Shown one piece after another: positions 20,788 to 54,650 of a DNA stretch of 64,000 nucleotides. Source of the stretch: Alloascoidea africana. Lineage: Eukaryota; Ascomycota; Alloascoideomycetes; Alloascoideales; Alloascoideaceae. Numbering within the stretch: the first letter of the stretch is position 1; each line of letters begins with the position of its first letter. A program made the position numbers and the translations under genes. The notes beneath the pieces were generated by a model that had not been told where the DNA came from, did not search any database, and saw only the letters and a program-made list of their open reading frames with translations. The stretch lies in NCBI GenBank assembly GCA_030581615.1, contig JAKTTT010000027.1:62001-126000 (forward strand), read 5' to 3'.

Positions 20788-21696
20788 TCACAGATTATTC
20801 ATATTTGTATTTAAAAACTCAACAAATAGTGGTTGGATTCTAGCTGTATCCAATGTTCTCATTTTATTCAGTGAAATGAACGACCGCCGTATCCTCTGTA
20901 ACTGGGCTAAAGAAACCTGAGATACAGGGACTTCTATAATCATAGTTTCACCATCTTCTAGCTTTATGTTGACCTCATGAGGTCCCAAATTTGGCGATAG
21001 TTTCTGCATCTCTAAGATCTGCTTCACCACATTTTGTGTCAACCTATCCAACTCGTAAAGGAAATTGGTTGCGGTTGCTGCTTTAACCACTGTTGCTTGA
21101 TTCGGCGGTTTAGCCTTTTTGAGAATGAGACCATCCCAAATGTCATCCACTGGGATTGTACTATCTGGATCATCAAAAGCAATGTTGAATAGCGGAGAAT
21201 CCCATCTTGATCTTCCATCTGGCTCTTCATATCTAAATATTAAGGCATCTAGCAGATCATCTGGCCACGATTCATCAACCCCTTTTTCTTCTAACGACTT
21301 TTCTCTCTTTGCAGTATTGTACTGTTTGCAAATTGCCGGCGGTGCCATAACATGGAAAACGCATGAATTGGTCGTAAGAGCTTTGGCTTCACAAAAAAGT
21401 TGGTACCGGAATCCCTTGATGTATGTTAGATTGTCGAGAATCACAATGGTTGACTTGGAAAGGTTCTTTTTGACAGCTGTCATTTGCATTCCACGAGTCG
21501 CTTTTTCTGTTCTGCTTTCTCTATAGGTTTCCTTTGAAATCGACAGACTTTCATCATTAATAACAAGCACTGACAAAGTTGAATATGGCGAGCTGGCAGG
21601 TTCTGATTTTATTTTCTTCTCCAACAGAGAAGCCAAGACCTTTGCCCTCGTCGTTTTACCACTGGAAGGAAACCCCGTAATCAGAATTAATGGCAT
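20788..21696 (-). CDS. KTI12: Elongator-associated ATPase Kti12
   Basis: 302-aa P-loop protein related to the tRNA kinase PSTK. It binds Elongator and is needed for wobble-uridine modification of tRNA (mcm5/ncm5) and, in yeasts, for sensitivity to zymocin-type toxins. The N-terminus is MPLILITGFPSSGKTTRA with a clear Walker A (GFPSSGKT). The Kti12 motifs SKSTIVILDNLTYIKGFRYQ (Walker B-like) and RYEEPDGRSRWDSPLF follow, and the helical C-terminal domain ends the protein. Length and domain order match the family. It is a single exon, divergent from EST2 across 255 bp. Confidence 0.95.
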   Translation of the reverse strand: MPLILITGFPSSGKTTRAKVLASLLEKKIKSEPASSPYSTLSVLVINDESLSISKETYRESRTEKATRGMQMTAVKKNLSKSTIVILDNLTYIKGFRYQLFCEAKALTTNSCVFHVMAPPAICKQYNTAKREKSLEEKGVDESWPDDLLDALIFRYEEPDGRSRWDSPLFNIAFDDPDSTIPVDDIWDGLILKKAKPPNQATVVKAATATNFLYELDRLTQNVVKQILEMQKLSPNLGPHEVNIKLEDGETMIIEVPVSQVSLAQLQRIRRSFISLNKMRTLDTARIQPLFVEFLNTNMNNL

Positions 21697-21951: not shown

Positions 21952-24900
21952 ATGAAAGGACAAACTTTAGAGTACTGCTCGCTCCAAGCGTACCTGAGTT
22001 CCACTATACCACAGTCTGAGGCTTCTAGATTGTTGAAAGAAGCCAACATTAATGACTCTGACCCGCGAGAATACATCGATTTGCTTAGAAATACCCTTAT
22101 TTCGTGTCCTATATATTCTCACGAGTTTTCGTTACAAAAAATTGGAATCGAGGACACAGATGGGATAACCCAAGACCAGGCAAGTTTCGCGAGTTTAAAG
22201 ATTTCCATTTCGTGTTCTAACAATTACTTAGATTGTTGATCGATGTGTTGAGGGGCTATTGAAAGACTTAAAGTATCGAAATGCCATTTCCAACGGATAC
22301 TACATGGTGAGCAAATAGCTATACATTATAGCTAGGTAATGTAGTTGCTAATACTTGTTAGGGCTCTGATTCAATTGATAGTTCGTCCAGTCTCTCGACC
22401 AATTCCATTAATTACTCTGCTCACCTACTAAAATCTCTGCCTTGGAGAATACTGTTGTCGAGGTATTTGACTTTAAATCTCGCTTTATGCCTTCTAGATA
22501 TGCTAACTCTTCCTCAAGAGTTGGCCCTCGATTAATGTCCTTCATAATTTTGAATGGAAAGATAATCCATAATGCTGGTCAGGGATCTATACATATCTCT
22601 AGTAAGTCGAAGTTTCCACTGGATTTTACGCGTCACAGCTTTTAATGGGGTAAAGAAACAACAAAAAGTTATAGCAACAGAGCCAGCTCTTCGAATACAT
22701 CCCTTAACACTGTAATAAATCGCAAGACTTTCATGTACAAAAAGTCCAATTTGAAAAATTTATGTTAGTGCTTTCTGTTTCTCGATTACAACAACTTCCC
22801 ATTAACCCTGCTTTACTTTTAGTTGATCGGGATATTGCGATGCTAATGTATCAAGTATTTCCTGCACAGCTTAAGAAAACTGACTTTAGAGACACTGGGA
22901 AACCTCAATTACCTAAAAGACTGCGAAAATTGCCCTTTGAGTTGTGCAAAAAGCTGCAAAAAAACTACTCAAAACATGCGGATTTTGACGTATTACTTGA
23001 AAAATACTGCCCATACGATAAGAGCAAGCTCAAAAACCCCAAGCTAGAGGAAGGAGCGTACTCCCCTCGAGAAAATGTTGCTCTGTTTTGCACAGAGGTG
23101 GTCGACCTACTTTTTCCTTTCAAGTTCTGGGGATGCTTGAAGAATAAGAGACTAGTATTTAAAAGTGAGCATCCATTTTCTTTTCTTTACTATTTTCCTG
23201 ACGAGTGATCTAATGAAAACAAGATATTTCCTCACTAATACAAGGCCATCAGGATGAGTTGATTCAAATGAAGGATCTTTTAAAGGGATTAAACTTGAAA
23301 AGCATTCCTTGGCTAGGACCTGAAACTGACAAAAAGTGGTGCCTCAGCGACTTCAAGAAAAGACAAGAATTGCTATGTGAATTCTTGAAATGGATGTTTA
23401 AAACTTTCCTTCCGACCTTGATATCTCGATATTTTTATTCTACAGAGAGCTATAACATTTCGTCGGGGATTTACTACTATCGGCACGATGTTTGGAAAGT
23501 TCTTGTTACCCCAACATTACACAAATATATGGCCACTAATCTTCAAAGATCAGGACATCTTACTGGAAAGGAAGGGGGCCGCATCAGGCTAATACCAAAA
23601 CCTATGAATTTTAGAGTTATTTGCAAACAGAATCAAACGTTGAAGGGAGAGGTATATATGTATTTGCTGTTGCAAAATGCTCATGTATTCTAATTGTTTT
23701 AGACATCTTATGAAAAATATGTTCGAAAAGCCCGTGTCAAGGAAGCTGCAAGCGTTGTACGCCAAGAAAGAGGAAAGAAAAGGGTCCATATCCAGGATGG
23801 GTCTGTTAGCCAGATCTATTCGCAACTGCAACAATTCAAACAAAAGATTCTCCTAGAAAACAACAATTCATTGTAAGCTTTCTTATCTTGAATTTACTGT
23901 GCCACAGACACTAATATTATTGCTAGACCCACTGTTTACTTTGTGAAATTCGACATCTCAAAATGTTTTGACACTTTACCCGTCCAAGATGCGATTAGAA
24001 TAGCCGGTGAGACAATGAGAAGCTCTGAGTATATAATTCGACAAATCCAGACAACTTCATCGGTTACATCTGCCCGGACCAAGACTTGTAATCTAGTTTT
24101 TCCATCGGACGAAGGTGCAAACATTATGGGTAAAATCGAATCTTTTGCAAACTCGAAAGAAGCCATAACTATAGATCGATCAAGGACTAAAGTTATTACT
24201 CGAGAACAAGTCTACCAAACTATTAAAGACCATGTTTCCAATGTAAAAATTAAGGTAAGATTGGCTTTGGCTTTGTGCTTCTTCAATTGCTTACAAAACT
24301 GGCATAGATTGGCCGCAAAACTTATCGTCGAGTTATGGGCGTTGCTCAGGGGTCTGAAGTTTCCCCACTTCTATGTCAACTCCTCTATGATGAATTGGTA
24401 GACCATTACTTCCCGTTTATCGATGGCAAAACCAGTGTTTTGCTCCGGTTTGTTGATGATTTTGTTATTGCCACTACCGACAAGAAAGTTGCCGTCATGG
24501 CTTACGAATCAGTGAAAATGGGTAAGACATTTCAGTTTCTATTTGTTTAACAACTTCTAACAAAAGGAATTTGACAAAGGATTCGAGACTTTCAATGCCC
24601 TCTCTAATCCAGAAAAGACCGTAACAAATTTTATGGGTGTGGGCAAGCAAAGATACATTCAATATTGTGGATTAACGATAGACACAGAAACCATGGACAT
24701 ATCAAAAGATGTTAGCGAATTTAGAGATGTTGGCTACAGAATAATGACGTACAAAAATTTGCATAAAAAACTGGATAAGTATGCACAACATTATTTGTGT
24801 CAACTTTTTATGACCCTAACTAATTAAATCTACCAGTTTGATAAATGTCAGAATGTCTCCTGTTCTACTAGATCTACAGCACAATTCCGAGAAAACAGTT

Positions 24901-25301
24901 CTTAACAACTTGTTGAATATCGTTCAAAGCATTGCTCGCACTTTCAGCCTGATGGCACGACAGTTTGACCGAAAATGTGTTGAAAAAATGATACAGGGTA
25001 AGCTTTTGACACTGACATGTGTTTTATCTAATGAATCTAACGATAATTGATAGTTTTATTCAATAAACTATTGATACTTGCAAACAGAAGGTTTGCAGGG
25101 AGAGTTGGCAAAAATTCGAATCAGGAATTCAAGAACAAAGTAAAAAGGTATGAGAATATTGCTTGAATGATAGGGGCAATCCTAACAGACATGCTTTTTC
25201 ATAGATCTTGTGTTCAGGGTTTTTTAAACGAGTTGAAGGAGTGTCCTGCACAGTTTGGACCTTCTGCGGCTTGGTTACAACTTTGTGCGCTACATTCATA
25301 G
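21952..25301 (+). CDS. EST2: Telomerase reverse transcriptase (Est2/TERT), 13 exons
   Basis: Catalytic subunit of telomerase. I assemble 13 exons: 21952-22179, 22232-22306, 22362-22462, 22519-22601, 22727-23164, 23224-23651, 23703-23872, 23927-24254, 24308-24521, 24580-24778, 24837-24997, 25054-25147, 25205-25301. They sum to 2616 nt, or 871 aa (Est2 is 884). Exons 1-4 give a TEN-like domain (IVDRCVEGLLKDLKYRNA, LLKSLPWRILLSRVG). Exons 5-6 give the RNA-binding domain (FPFKFWGCLKNKR) and T motif (SIPWL, YYYRHDVWKVL). Exons 6-9 carry RT motif 2 (GGRIRLIPKPMNFRVI), motif A FVKFDISKCFD (D517), motif B' GVAQGSEVSP and motif C LLRFVDDFV (D667, D668). Motif D/E sequence and a short thumb follow. Introns are 51-125 nt. 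Intron 1 has a GC donor; introns 3, 4, 5 and 9 end in AAG. Intron 4 boundaries are the least certain. Confidence 0.9.
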
Positions 25302-25891: not shown

Positions 25892-28800
25892 ATGTCTGTT
25901 TTCCAGGGCGTGTATATTGCCCTGTATCCATATACAGCTAGGACGGATCAAGAATTAACCATCCAAAAGGATGATAAACTTTACCTGATTGAAAAATCAA
26001 CAACAGACGCTTGGTGGACTGTAAAGAAAGCTAACGCTGACGATGAAGCTCCAGGAATTGTACCCAGTAACTATATTGAAGAAGTAAGCAGGTTGCCTTT
26101 TTTTTGCTTTATGCTTAGTTGACTCAGATAACAATATGGATGATTCAAGAACATGATATCGTAGCTGATGCCATCTTTGCTCTGAAATCTGCCCTGCTAA
26201 CAATTTTAAGGCGAACCCCATAACAATCGCTACAGCTCTTTATAGCTACGATAATCAGACAAATGAAGAACTTTCCTTTCAAGCTGATGAGAGATTATCC
26301 ATATTTGACACCTCAGATCCTGATTGGTTTATGGCATTTTCTCCTAGCTCTGGAAGTTATGGGTTTGTGCCTTCCAACTATATACAAATCGAATCAGAAA
26401 CCTCAGTCCCTCCACCGGTCCCTGACAAGGTAGAGCGATCACCTGCTGCCGCTTCAATACCATCTCAAACCAGAAATATACAAGAGAGTCATCAAGTAGT
26501 TGAGAGGCAAACGGAAAAGCAAGCAAAAGCAAATTTGTCTGATGACGACGACTGGGACGTTTCTCCTCGTCCATCCCGACGGAATAATGTAACAAACGAC
26601 TACAGTCTACACAACATAAATCAAAACGTCTCCCAGGACAGTTCGCCCCAGCCATTCTCATGGTCAGTAGCAGAGATAGATGGAAGGCAAAGAACGCGCG
26701 GAACGTTGTTTATATCATCCTCGGCAATTTGGTTTGTACCCAGAAATGCCAAGGTTGATGATAAATGGTTACTACAGGACGTTACCGAGTATGCTGTAGA
26801 TGGACATTATCTGTTTTTACACCTTAGACGACCGACTGCCTCTTTGGAATTTCGCACTGCATCAAAGGATGTTGCAGAAGACATTATGGAAGTGTTGAAG
26901 GATCTAGGAGTGGCTTCGGATTCAGACTCGAATCCAAAAAAGGGAAGGGTATCCTATAGTTTTCATGCCAAAAGTGGCCCTGAAATATCTGTTTCAGAGG
27001 GAGAAACTGTTTACATCTTGGATAACAGTAGGGATGAGGAGTGGTGGCTAGTTCGAACTTCAAAAGGGAAAGAAGGAATAGTGCCCAGCGCATACATACA
27101 TGTTGACATAAATGGATCGGGTCCATCAAGTGGACGTCGAGAAAAAAGTTCGAGTTCAGGACATTCAAAGAAGATGTCAAAACCGAATCCTCAGAAAATG
27201 AGAACTTGGGTGGACAGATCTGGGGCTTTCAGAGTTGAAGCTGAGTTTTTGGGTCTAATGAATGGAAAGGTTCACTTGCATAAAGCCAACGGGGTTAAAA
27301 TTGCTGTTGAAGCATCAAAATTATCTATGGAGGATCTAGATTTTGTTGAAAGAGCAACAGGGGCATCCCTTCAAGACTACAAACCCCTTACGGGTAAACC
27401 ATCCTTTTCAAAACTTAGGAATAAAGATCGTCGAGAGCGAGAACGGGAACGGGAACGAGAGAGGGAGCGAGATCGCGCATACTCTACTTCACCTGGCCCA
27501 AGAATGCCAGTGAGACCCTCGAATCCTAGGCAGTCATCATCAAGGGGAACCATTCATTCTAAACCAGAGTACGACTGGTTTAATTTCTTCTTGGCTTGTG
27601 GTGTAGAGGTTAATAATTGCAACAGATATGCCCTTACTTTTGAAAGGGAGCAAATGGACGAAAACACTCTATCGGATGTCAATACGGATCTCCTTCGAAG
27701 TCTTGGCTTAAGAGAAGGCGACATTTTACGGGTTAAGAAGTATTTGGATAACAAATACAAAAGAGAAGAGCAGAAAGACCAGAGCGCTACTGGCCATAAA
27801 GGCGAAGGTAGCCTTTTTTCGGGTACTGATGGTGAACTCAAAACCACAAGGGGTAGGAGGACCAATACAAATGTGTCTTCTTCTATTCCTGCTCCTTCCA
27901 AAGCCCCAGAGGAAACCAAGAAACAAACACTTCAAGTCACCCCAGAGACAAAAGAAGAAGATTCTCCCCCTCTGCCCAGTATAGACGATTTTGATGATGA
28001 TGCCTGGACCGTAAAGCCTGCCATGACTAGAAGCCGCTCAAACACTTATAGTAGAAATGCATCATCGACATCAATTGACAAGCCGACAAGCTCCGATCTT
28101 CCTCCCCAGATCCCAGTCAGTGGGAACTTACGTGACTTGATGAGCATCAAGTCTAGTGACCAATCTCATTCTCAGCCTTCACCACCTCCTCCAGCAACAG
28201 TATCTTCTCAGGTCTCCACTGCTTCAGCACAATTGCAATCTACGCAACCATCGAACCCGTCTTTAGGGACGCCCACTACTAGTGGATTTGGGACGGGATC
28301 TCTCTCCCAACCATCACAGCAATATTCTGTCTTGAATCCTCAGGCAACTGGCGCAGTCGGCTTGACTTCATCAAGCATTTCGCTCCCTCTTCAGAGAACC
28401 GGAGGTGGTTCAAGCTTTGTTGGGACCCAGATCAGCGGTGGGCCATCTTCATTACTGCCTGTTCACCAGTCAGGACCTATCACAATTATTCAGCCAGTAA
28501 TGTCTGTTCAACCTTCATTAGTTCCAATTCAGCAATCACAGCAACCGCCACAACAATTAGGCCAATTCAATAGTGGACAGCAGCTGTTGTATCAGCAGCA
28601 ACAAGTTTTACCCCAGCCATCACACACCAGTCAAATGTCTTCTCAGCTTTCAGGGCAAATCTCAGGACTTTCAAATTATCTGCAATCAACGAGCATTTCT
28701 AATCCTCCTTCTCTCGCCAACACGGGCCAGTCCTTCTTATCTACTGGGTCCGCAACTTCTTATCAACTTCAAGCGAACCTGTCCAACATGCAGGCACCTT

Positions 28801-29129
28801 CGCCTTTTCCTGCTCAGCCCGCTCCTCAACAACAACCAAGAGGTGCCCTACAGCCTCAGCCAACTGGATTTGGATTTGGATTGGGGCCTGCGGGATTACC
28901 TACCAATCCGCTTCAAGCAAACCCTCTTCCGATGTTGCCCCAGCCTCCACAATATAGTGGCACTCAACCACAGTACAGTGGAGGCTCTGGGCTGGGAGGT
29001 CTAAACATGATGCCACCAAGCGTCAGTTTTGGTCAGCAGCACCAGCAGCAACAGCCATTGCAACCGACACCTACCGGGCGGGTGGCCAATCTTTCTGCTG
29101 CTACCCCAAGTAATCCTTTTGGCTTCTAG
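25892..29129 (+). CDS. SLA1: Endocytic adaptor Sla1
   Basis: Cortical actin-patch and clathrin adaptor that links NPFxD-bearing cargo, Las17/WASP and Pan1/End3. Exons 25892-26083 and 26211-29129 give 1036 aa. The 127-nt intron (GTAAGC donor, TGCTAAC branch, AAG acceptor) falls exactly between SH3-1 (about residues 4-64) and SH3-2 (about 66-125). SH3-3 lies near 308-362 (EEWWLVRTSKGKEGIVPSAY). SHD1, which binds NPFxD, is near 394-447 (RTWVDRSGAFRVEAEFLG). The SAM-like SHD2 is near 518-580 (YDWFNFFLACGVEVNNCNRY). An Arg/Glu run sits at about 472-485. The long C-terminal part is rich in Q, P and S with TG-type motifs (QATGAVG, QPTGFGFG) and ends NPFGF. The start was chosen at MSVFQGVYIALYPY, the conserved SH3-1 opening. 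Confidence 0.94.
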
Positions 29130-53122: not shown

Positions 53123-54650
53123 ATGTCGAGAGAAGCTCCTATCAAGGCCGAGAAGGATTTCACAGATATCCTGGATTCGCAATTCCCGGAGATTGACACC
53201 TTGTCAAAGGTATATGATGTTTTGTTACTCATATCATGCACATTGGAGTTGGCGATTAACATTGAATAATGTAGAGCGATGCTGGGGCTGCTCTTGACAA
53301 GTTGCTGGTTCTTGAAAAACAAACGCGGCAGGTAGGTGTTGTTTGATGATATCAATTGATCAAAAAGAGCTGGATTTGTGCTAATGCTAGTATTAGGCAT
53401 CTGACTTGGCCTCTTCGAAAAGAGTTCTGCAAAAGATAATCAACGTGATAAAGAATTCAAACGACTGGAAACTCTTGAATGAGCAACTCGTCGTGCTATC
53501 CAAGAAGCATGGCCAAATGAAAGCTGCAGTTACTGCCATGGTTCAAGAGGTTATCAAGTTTCTAGATGATACGCCCTCTCTTGAGGTCAAGATTGAGACG
53601 ATCGAGACCATAAGAACAGTTACTGAGAGCAAAGTGAGTGGTGCGGTACATGTACTTATTTCGAGATCTCTCTAACAGATTAATTTCTAGATATTTGTTG
53701 AAGTGGAGAGAGCTAGAGTTACGAGGACTTTGGCAAAAATCCGAGAGGATGAAGGTGACATTGCCAAAGCTACAGACTTGTTATGCGAGCTACAGGTCGA
53801 GACCTACGGATCTATGGAGCTTCAGGAAAAGATTGAATTCATTTTGGAGCAGATGGAGCTCTGTGTTAAGAAAGGCGATTTCAACCAGGCAAACATTCTC
53901 AGCCGTAAAATCTTGACAAAGACATTCAAAGGGGGCAAATACGAAGAACTAAAGATTCACTACTATGAGTTGATGATCAAAATCGCCACCCATGACAGTA
54001 GATACCTTGATATATGTCAATACTTCCAGGCTCTTTATGAAAGTGAAACTATTAAGAATGATGAAACAAAATGGAAAGATGTGCTAGCAAACATTGTCTA
54101 CTTTATTGTATTATCACCATACGATAATCTTCAGTCAGACCTGATCCACAAAATTTCATCGGATTCTAATCTTTCTTCGCTCCCTCTACAAGATCAGCTG
54201 CTGACGAGCTTTACAACGCCAGAGCTAAATAGATGGCCAATTGTTGAGAAGCTTTATGGCCCCGAATTGACCAAGATTGATATCTTTGATATCAACACAG
54301 AGAGCGGTAGGAAGCGATGGGGTGATCTAAGAAAGCGAGTTATTGAACACAACCTACGAGTTGTTTCCAAGTACTACACCCGGATTCGAAGTTCGCGACT
54401 CAATGTGCTGTTAGATTTGAATGAGCAAGAAACTGAATCCTTCATCTCCAATCTGGTGACCCAAGGGACTATTTATGCAAAAATCGACAGACCCAAGAAA
54501 ATCATCTCTTTTGCACCACCCAAGGATCCGAATGAGGTTATGAATGAATGGGGAAATAGCATTACTGATTTGTTGAACCATATTGAGACCATTGAGCATT
54601 TGATCACTAAGGAAGAGATGATGAAGGGCATCAGGCCATTGAAAGCTTAA
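53123..54650 (+). CDS. RPN5: 26S proteasome lid subunit Rpn5
   Basis: Non-ATPase PCI subunit of the proteasome regulatory particle lid. Four exons: 53123-53209, 53275-53331, 53397-53633, 53691-54650, giving 446 aa (445 in S. cerevisiae). All three introns (65, 65 and 57 nt) are phase 0 with GTATAT, GTAGGT and GTGAGT donors and TAG acceptors. The N-terminus (MSREAPIKAEKDFTDILDSQ) is followed by TPR-like helices, including VEVERARVTRTLAKIREDEG, a highly conserved Rpn5 stretch. The C-terminal PCI domain contains LRKRVIEHNLRVVSKYYTRI and ends in a helix with WGNSITDLLNHIETIEHLI. High confidence from length and conserved blocks. Confidence 0.96.

Follow-up and report, generated by a model that had tools for sequence, protein, structure and literature searches.

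EST2, the telomerase reverse transcriptase (TERT) gene of Saccharomyces cerevisiae, is intronless. The trt1 gene of S. pombe, an intron-rich yeast TERT with about 15 short introns but one that belongs to a fission yeast, would be an exception to intronless TERTs in unicellular organisms, further to the two named next. According to a TERT gene-structure survey, the unicellular TERTs examined are intronless save those of Capsaspora and Theileria (PMC5405514). Human TERT holds 15 introns (PMC10003056, PMC5855555) in a gene of 40 kb (PMC5855555). Among titles and abstract openings of open-licence papers touching on yeast TERT introns, none describes a budding-yeast TERT with introns. As to the intron content of other yeasts, no gene among the 6449 of Yarrowia lipolytica has more than five introns (PMC2911113), G. 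candidum has 3830 introns in 2415 genes, or 35% of its genes (PMC13130702), and Lipomyces starkeyi has 1.1 introns per kb (PMC8476143).

The window, that is, the whole 64-kb stretch of DNA that was analysed, holds at 21952-25301 on the plus strand a gene that is confirmed, with corrections, as a predicted full TERT/Est2 orthologue. With 13 predicted introns it differs from the intronless EST2 and from the genes of Y. lipolytica, a budding yeast that branched early and in which a gene has five introns at most (PMC2911113), and it would correct the picture of budding-yeast telomerase genes as intronless. The surprise that a preliminary description of this DNA had drawn from the comparison with S. 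cerevisiae was overstated, as human TERT has 15 introns and S. pombe trt1 about 15, but it stands when confined to budding yeasts. It is highly probable that the locus is an intact, apparently single-copy EST2/TERT gene, and the gene, its domains and motifs, the splice-signal matches and the open frame are observed directly. From these it is inferred that the 13 introns would be removed constitutively, and that the gene would stand at the intron-rich end of a genome otherwise moderately poor in introns, its splicing playing no special regulatory part. On this model the TERT pre-mRNA would carry 13 very short spliceosomal introns, all of which would have to be removed to give the full enzyme; the TEN and RNA-binding domains would hold the telomere end and the RNA, and the reverse transcriptase core would copy the RNA template, as in a standard TERT. 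A budding yeast whose TERT is rich in introns may lend itself to experiments on whether telomerase is limited by splicing.

Identity and domains of the spliced product

At a threshold of 0.001 the spliced product of 875 aa hits 17 different sequences of solved structures, all of which bear the name telomerase reverse transcriptase. The top hit, chain 9swn, which we take to be Est2 of S. cerevisiae, is aligned over residues 72-810 at 1.4e-63; the order of TEN, RNA-binding domain (RBD) and reverse transcriptase (RT) motifs is the same in both, and Est2 is of similar length (884 aa). Chain 6zdp follows at 4.7e-48; with the 6zd1/6zdp TERT chains, presumably from Candida tropicalis, the product has in common the RBD, the RT and a portion of the putative C-terminal extension. 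The RT core is also shared with chain 7qxa (1.4e-35), which we assume to be human TERT. In Pfam searches of the spliced product, Telomerase_RBD (PF12009) covers residues 283-414 with 123.9 bits against a cut-off of 25 (6.2e-36), and RVT_1 scores 50.2 bits against a cut-off of 29.6 (3.5e-13). The product contains the full succession of motifs, T, 1, 2, A, B', C, D and E, in that order, and has its catalytic aspartates at Asp521, Asp671 and Asp672. The T motif, an FYxTE-like sequence before motif 1, reads RYFYSTES at residues 381-388 and is aligned to ffycte of 9swn.

For the TEN domain, residues 1-176, searched alone, match TERT chains 9swn (1.3e-4) and 5lgf (0.0024), the matched part being 72-160; the only further hits, at 0.7 and 0.9, are to a pair of unrelated chains. 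Residues 1-71 lie outside the TERT alignments, and Pfam named no TEN domain on the full spliced product. At E values up to 10, searches with the unspliced N-terminal open reading frames (ORFs) 21952-22236, 22412-22642 and 22362-22532 retrieved no TERT chain, and the two N-terminal unspliced ORFs submitted to Pfam returned no domain, whereas other unspliced ORFs do reveal the downstream domains: the RBD is recognized on the exon-7 ORF (2.9e-27) and on an ORF adjoining it (0.0053), RVT_1 on the ORF of exon 10 (3.7e-07) and on one further ORF (0.023). The earlier assertion that a TEN signature emerges only after the exons are joined is thus upheld, and such a gene model may easily be broken by automatic annotation, the TEN region being invisible to sequence search unless spliced. 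At the other end, the alignment of the putative C-terminal extension reaches residue 839 at most (chain 6d6v), leaving the final 36 residues unaligned. The preliminary description had called the gene a complete TERT, and the TEN, RBD and RT domains, the motifs and the three catalytic aspartates agree with it, with the proviso that the TEN domain is recognized through TERT chains and not by a Pfam match.

A profile search of the genome (23,180,953 bases in 138 contigs) scored two candidates and returned one Telomerase_RBD match, at exon 7; the second TERT gene that would have contradicted the earlier account was sought genome-wide, and the sole match belongs to the gene at 21952-25301. In a protein database the full TERT retrieved three plant TERTs and no fungal TERT among 5862 candidates, and the exon-7 ORF gave no match among 27 candidates. 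Rfam reported nothing at the gathering threshold in the 64-kb window.

The gene model and its intron count

The best splice model for 21952-25301 comprises 13 introns and 14 exons, all on the plus strand, and 876 codons including the stop. Unspliced, the frame is broken throughout, and no single ORF spans the region. The introns are uniformly 51-59 nt long (mean 55.5 nt, n=13); 12 have GT-AG ends and one GC-AG, and all 13 combine a positively scoring donor and an AG acceptor with a positive branch-point score (range 2.39 to 6.17), with eight intron pairs also being picked up by a stricter splice-pattern scan. Phase 0 occurs in four introns, phase 1 in five and phase 2 in four. The coding sequence (CDS) contains nine CTG codons; some of them fall within hydrophobic runs, LLKSLPWRILL for example, which fits the standard reading as leucine.

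Exon 1 (21952..22179) provides the ATG, identical at all five gene-finder penalties, and the N-terminal part of the product, in which the TEN domain begins. Intron 1 (22180..22231, 52 nt) is the GC-AG intron, reading GCAAGT ... CTAAC ... TTAG, and the 9swn alignment spans its junction. The TEN domain continues through exons 2 (22232..22306) and 3 (22362..22462) and ends in exon 4 (22519..22601); these exons, together with introns 2 (22307..22361, 55 nt) and 3 (22463..22518, 56 nt, branch TGCTAAC), are placed by the splice model and by alignment to TERT chains. Intron 4 (22602..22655, 54 nt) is supported by its splice-signal scores. Exon 5 (22656..22763), a linker containing INRKTFMY, is given by the splice model and the 9swn match, and intron 5 (22764..22822, 59 nt) by the splice model and splice-signal scores. 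The RBD starts in exon 6 (22823..23164), where Pfam recognizes it on the ORF and on the spliced product alike, and continues beyond intron 6 (23165..23223, 59 nt), which has an in-frame alternative acceptor 21 nt downstream at 23244, into exon 7 (23224..23651) with the T motif and motifs 1 and 2. Introns 7 (23652..23702, 51 nt), 8 (23873..23926, 54 nt), 11 (24779..24836, 58 nt) and 12 (24998..25053, 56 nt) are each backed by the splice model, the gene finder and splice-signal scores.

Exon 8 (23703..23872) is placed by the splice model and its match to TERT chains, while exon 9 (23927..24254), which bears motif A and Asp521, and exon 11 (24580..24778), which bears motifs D and E, are placed by the splice model and the motif positions. 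Between them, intron 9 (24255..24307, 53 nt) has the weakest branch-point score of the set, 2.39, and exon 10 (24308..24521) carries motifs B' and C with Asp671-Asp672. For intron 10 (24522..24579, 58 nt) the gene finder favours a later acceptor, in frame and 33 nt further on at 24612; its use would delete GFETFNALSNP, part of the stretch aligned with 9swn and 7qxa, and the acceptor at 24579 is therefore kept. The putative C-terminal extension occupies exon 12 (24837..24997; splice model and alignment) and exon 13 (25054..25147; splice model, partly aligned). Intron 13 (25148..25204, 57 nt) is missed, or given another acceptor, at strict gene-finder penalties, and exon 14 (25205..25301), placed by the splice model, closes with the stop codon TAG at 25299-25301. 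The full-length 9swn alignment ends before introns 12 and 13.

The location, strand, start and stop of this gene are as first described. The count is not: the earlier model had 12 introns, 13 exons and 872 codons, two short introns having been merged into one of 125 nt. If 22602-22726 is taken as a single intron, exactly 872 codons and an 871-aa product result, and the linker after the TEN domain reads NFHVQKVQFEKFMLVLS... in place of KTTKSYSNRASSS...FMYKKS; the first 71 nt of exon 5 then fall inside the intron, and the remainder of that exon is read in another frame. This 12-intron model is in frame and open, its coding score over the disputed stretch is slightly the higher (1.00 vs 0.43), and the 125-nt intron was chosen by the gene finder at strict penalties, namely -7 when trained with the window included and both -7 and -6 when trained without it. 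However, it was abandoned at looser penalties, it would be the only intron outside 51-59 nt, and the best TERT chain, 9swn, aligns with 209.4 bits to the 12-intron product as opposed to 218.8 bits to the 13-intron product, a loss of 9.4 bits. Most other TERT chains score both models almost alike, as their alignments begin downstream of the disputed stretch. It is unlikely, then, that the 12-intron model is the correct one, although both forms could exist, since the frame is kept by either.

The 13-intron model was compared with a gene finder in which generic fungal splice weights were entered by hand and codon usage was derived from 20 sampled 10-kb stretches, window excluded (43 ORFs). It returned exactly 9, 10, 12, 12 and 12 of the 13 introns at penalties of -7, -6, -5, -4 and -3, and the full set at none of the five: the intron 10 acceptor was set 33 nt further on throughout, the gene ended at 25166 at -7, and one extra intron was added at -3. 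At -5 the TERT scored 77.2, as compared with at most 6.5 in 60 dinucleotide-preserving shuffles of the region, in which no predicted gene had more than four introns. When trained on the window plus the sample, the finder returned 10, 12 and 13 of the 13 introns at -7, -5 and -3, with TERT fused to the downstream gene or genes at all three penalties, including -3, where every intron was recovered. Initial settings of the gene finder were set aside for fusing neighbouring genes.

Splicing, intron density and intron origin

Retention of any one of the 13 introns introduces a premature stop, in keeping with the earlier claim that each retained intron truncates the product, and the dependence of a full-length enzyme on many splicing events would likewise hold, with 13 predicted introns instead of 12. 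The length of nine introns is not a multiple of three. For the four 3n-length introns, the joint chance of an in-frame stop in all four was 0.61 when their middles were shuffled and the splice-signal ends fixed, and three of the four had a stop in every shuffle. Stops on retention are thus expected by chance and carry almost no information, which leaves the further inference in the preliminary description, that splicing limits or regulates telomerase, unsupported. In Y. lipolytica, almost all retained introns likewise produce premature stops (PMC2911113).

A regulatory bottleneck, in which intron retention or alternative acceptors set the amount of telomerase, might nonetheless be proposed, as all 13 introns need removal, each when retained truncates the protein, intron 1 has a GC donor, and in-frame alternative acceptors lie 21 nt past that of intron 6 and 33 nt past that of intron 10. 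Human TERT, a 40-kb gene with alternative splicing, is moreover regulated by splicing (PMC10003056). Against such a bottleneck stand the chance expectation of the retention stops and the positive donor and branch scores of all 13 introns. In addition, the codon bias of the TERT is weak (7th percentile) and may reflect low expression without any splicing control. A bottleneck is accordingly regarded as decidedly unlikely. Low expression was also considered as the reason for intron retention and was rejected, codon bias and intron density being uncorrelated (rho -0.07, p 0.52, n 87). A more elaborate form of the idea, that the telomerase level is set jointly by 13 splicing efficiencies and by the in-frame alternatives at introns 6 and 10 or in the choice at introns 4/5, is very unlikely; if true, TERT splicing would serve a unicellular fungus as a means of controlling the length of its telomeres, in parallel with the splicing of human TERT.

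Constitutive removal of a set of introns unusually large for the clade, the preferred reading, can be placed in the context of the genome. The gene sample consisted of the 20 stretches of 10 kb and the rest of the window, and was limited to predicted genes of at least 150 aa scoring at least 15; lower-scoring overlapping predictions were discarded before counting, and the count of 87 excludes the prediction that overlaps TERT in the window. At a penalty of -7, 50 of these 87 other genes had no intron, 20 had one, 11 two and four three, with single genes reaching 6 and 7; the finder's TERT prediction at this penalty had 11. At -5, 80 introns were predicted across 66 sampled genes, the maximum again being 7, and TERT had 13. 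The TERT is at the top of the sample in intron count, and not in density. Its 13 introns in 2.63 kb of CDS amount to 4.9 per kb, and higher predicted densities are seen in a YGR210-like Obg GTPase gene (3.9e-36; L015:7641-9281, minus strand; 7 predicted introns in 406 aa, 5.75 per kb) and in a gene for a TGS1-like RNA cap trimethylase (Methyltransf_15 5.9e-49; L008:2520-3798, minus strand; 6 predicted introns in 290 aa, 6.9 per kb). As these two sampled genes, with 6 and 7 introns, are denser, TERT appears to be the extreme of a tail. Yeast telomerase RNA is capped by Tgs1 (PMC5855555). Elsewhere in the window, a gene at 53123-54650 was predicted with 3 introns at each of the penalties -7, -5 and -3. 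This gene is presumably RPN5-like.

The introns of TERT could alternatively be recent related insertions of the introner type, or the gene may have gained introns in a burst. Their very uniform lengths of 51-59 nt would suit such an origin, as would the positions of introns 9, 10 and 11, which on the 7qxa alignment fall at residues 819/820, 890 and 976, where, judging from hTERT exon lengths, no hTERT intron would lie exactly. However, mean identity among the 13 introns is 0.404, compared with 0.403 in middle-shuffled controls, and in two other genes introns of 55-88 nt occur with comparable density per kb. The introner hypothesis was rejected on the former ground, the introns being no more alike than shuffled controls, and recent gain in general is considered distinctly improbable. 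Acquisition of the TERT from another fungus is possible. That the gene is a decayed, non-functional TERT in which apparent introns mask frameshifts, as the thoroughly interrupted unspliced frame might suggest, is extremely improbable, in that all 13 interruptions have a donor, an AG acceptor and a positive branch-point score, the catalytic motifs are intact, and the sole RBD match in the genome is in this gene.

Neighbouring genes and contig ends

TERT is flanked upstream by a divergent KTI12 orthologue, a single ORF at 20788..21696 on the minus strand; the two start codons are 255 bp apart, and the genes possibly share a promoter region. Among the best 120 of 699 matches, the KTI12 product is 73% identical to the top match, and its best named relatives are those of Nadsonia fulvescens (58%), Sugiyamaella lignohabitans (53%) and Trichomonascus vanleenenianus (52%); the host would be a budding yeast close to Nadsonia and allied genera, in the neighbourhood of the Dipodascales. 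Downstream on the plus strand lies an SLA1 orthologue (25892..29129), whose main ORF spans 26169-29129 and whose ATG at 25892 is our own placement.

Inspection by eye of the 40 ends of contigs C1-C20, 90 bases each, recognized no telomere-like array. The ends L034 and L040, and likewise L028 and L059, are identical over 90 bases on different contigs, so that dispersed repeats probably break the assembly. At the end of contig C1 (L023:1950-2000) a G-rich stretch is followed by adapter-like letters, presumably from an Illumina adapter and thus an assembly residue, perhaps beside a telomere; a tandem-repeat search on L023 came back empty. The start of contig C18 (L056:2-103) consists of a degenerate tandem array with a 20-nt unit in 5 copies and 92% matches.
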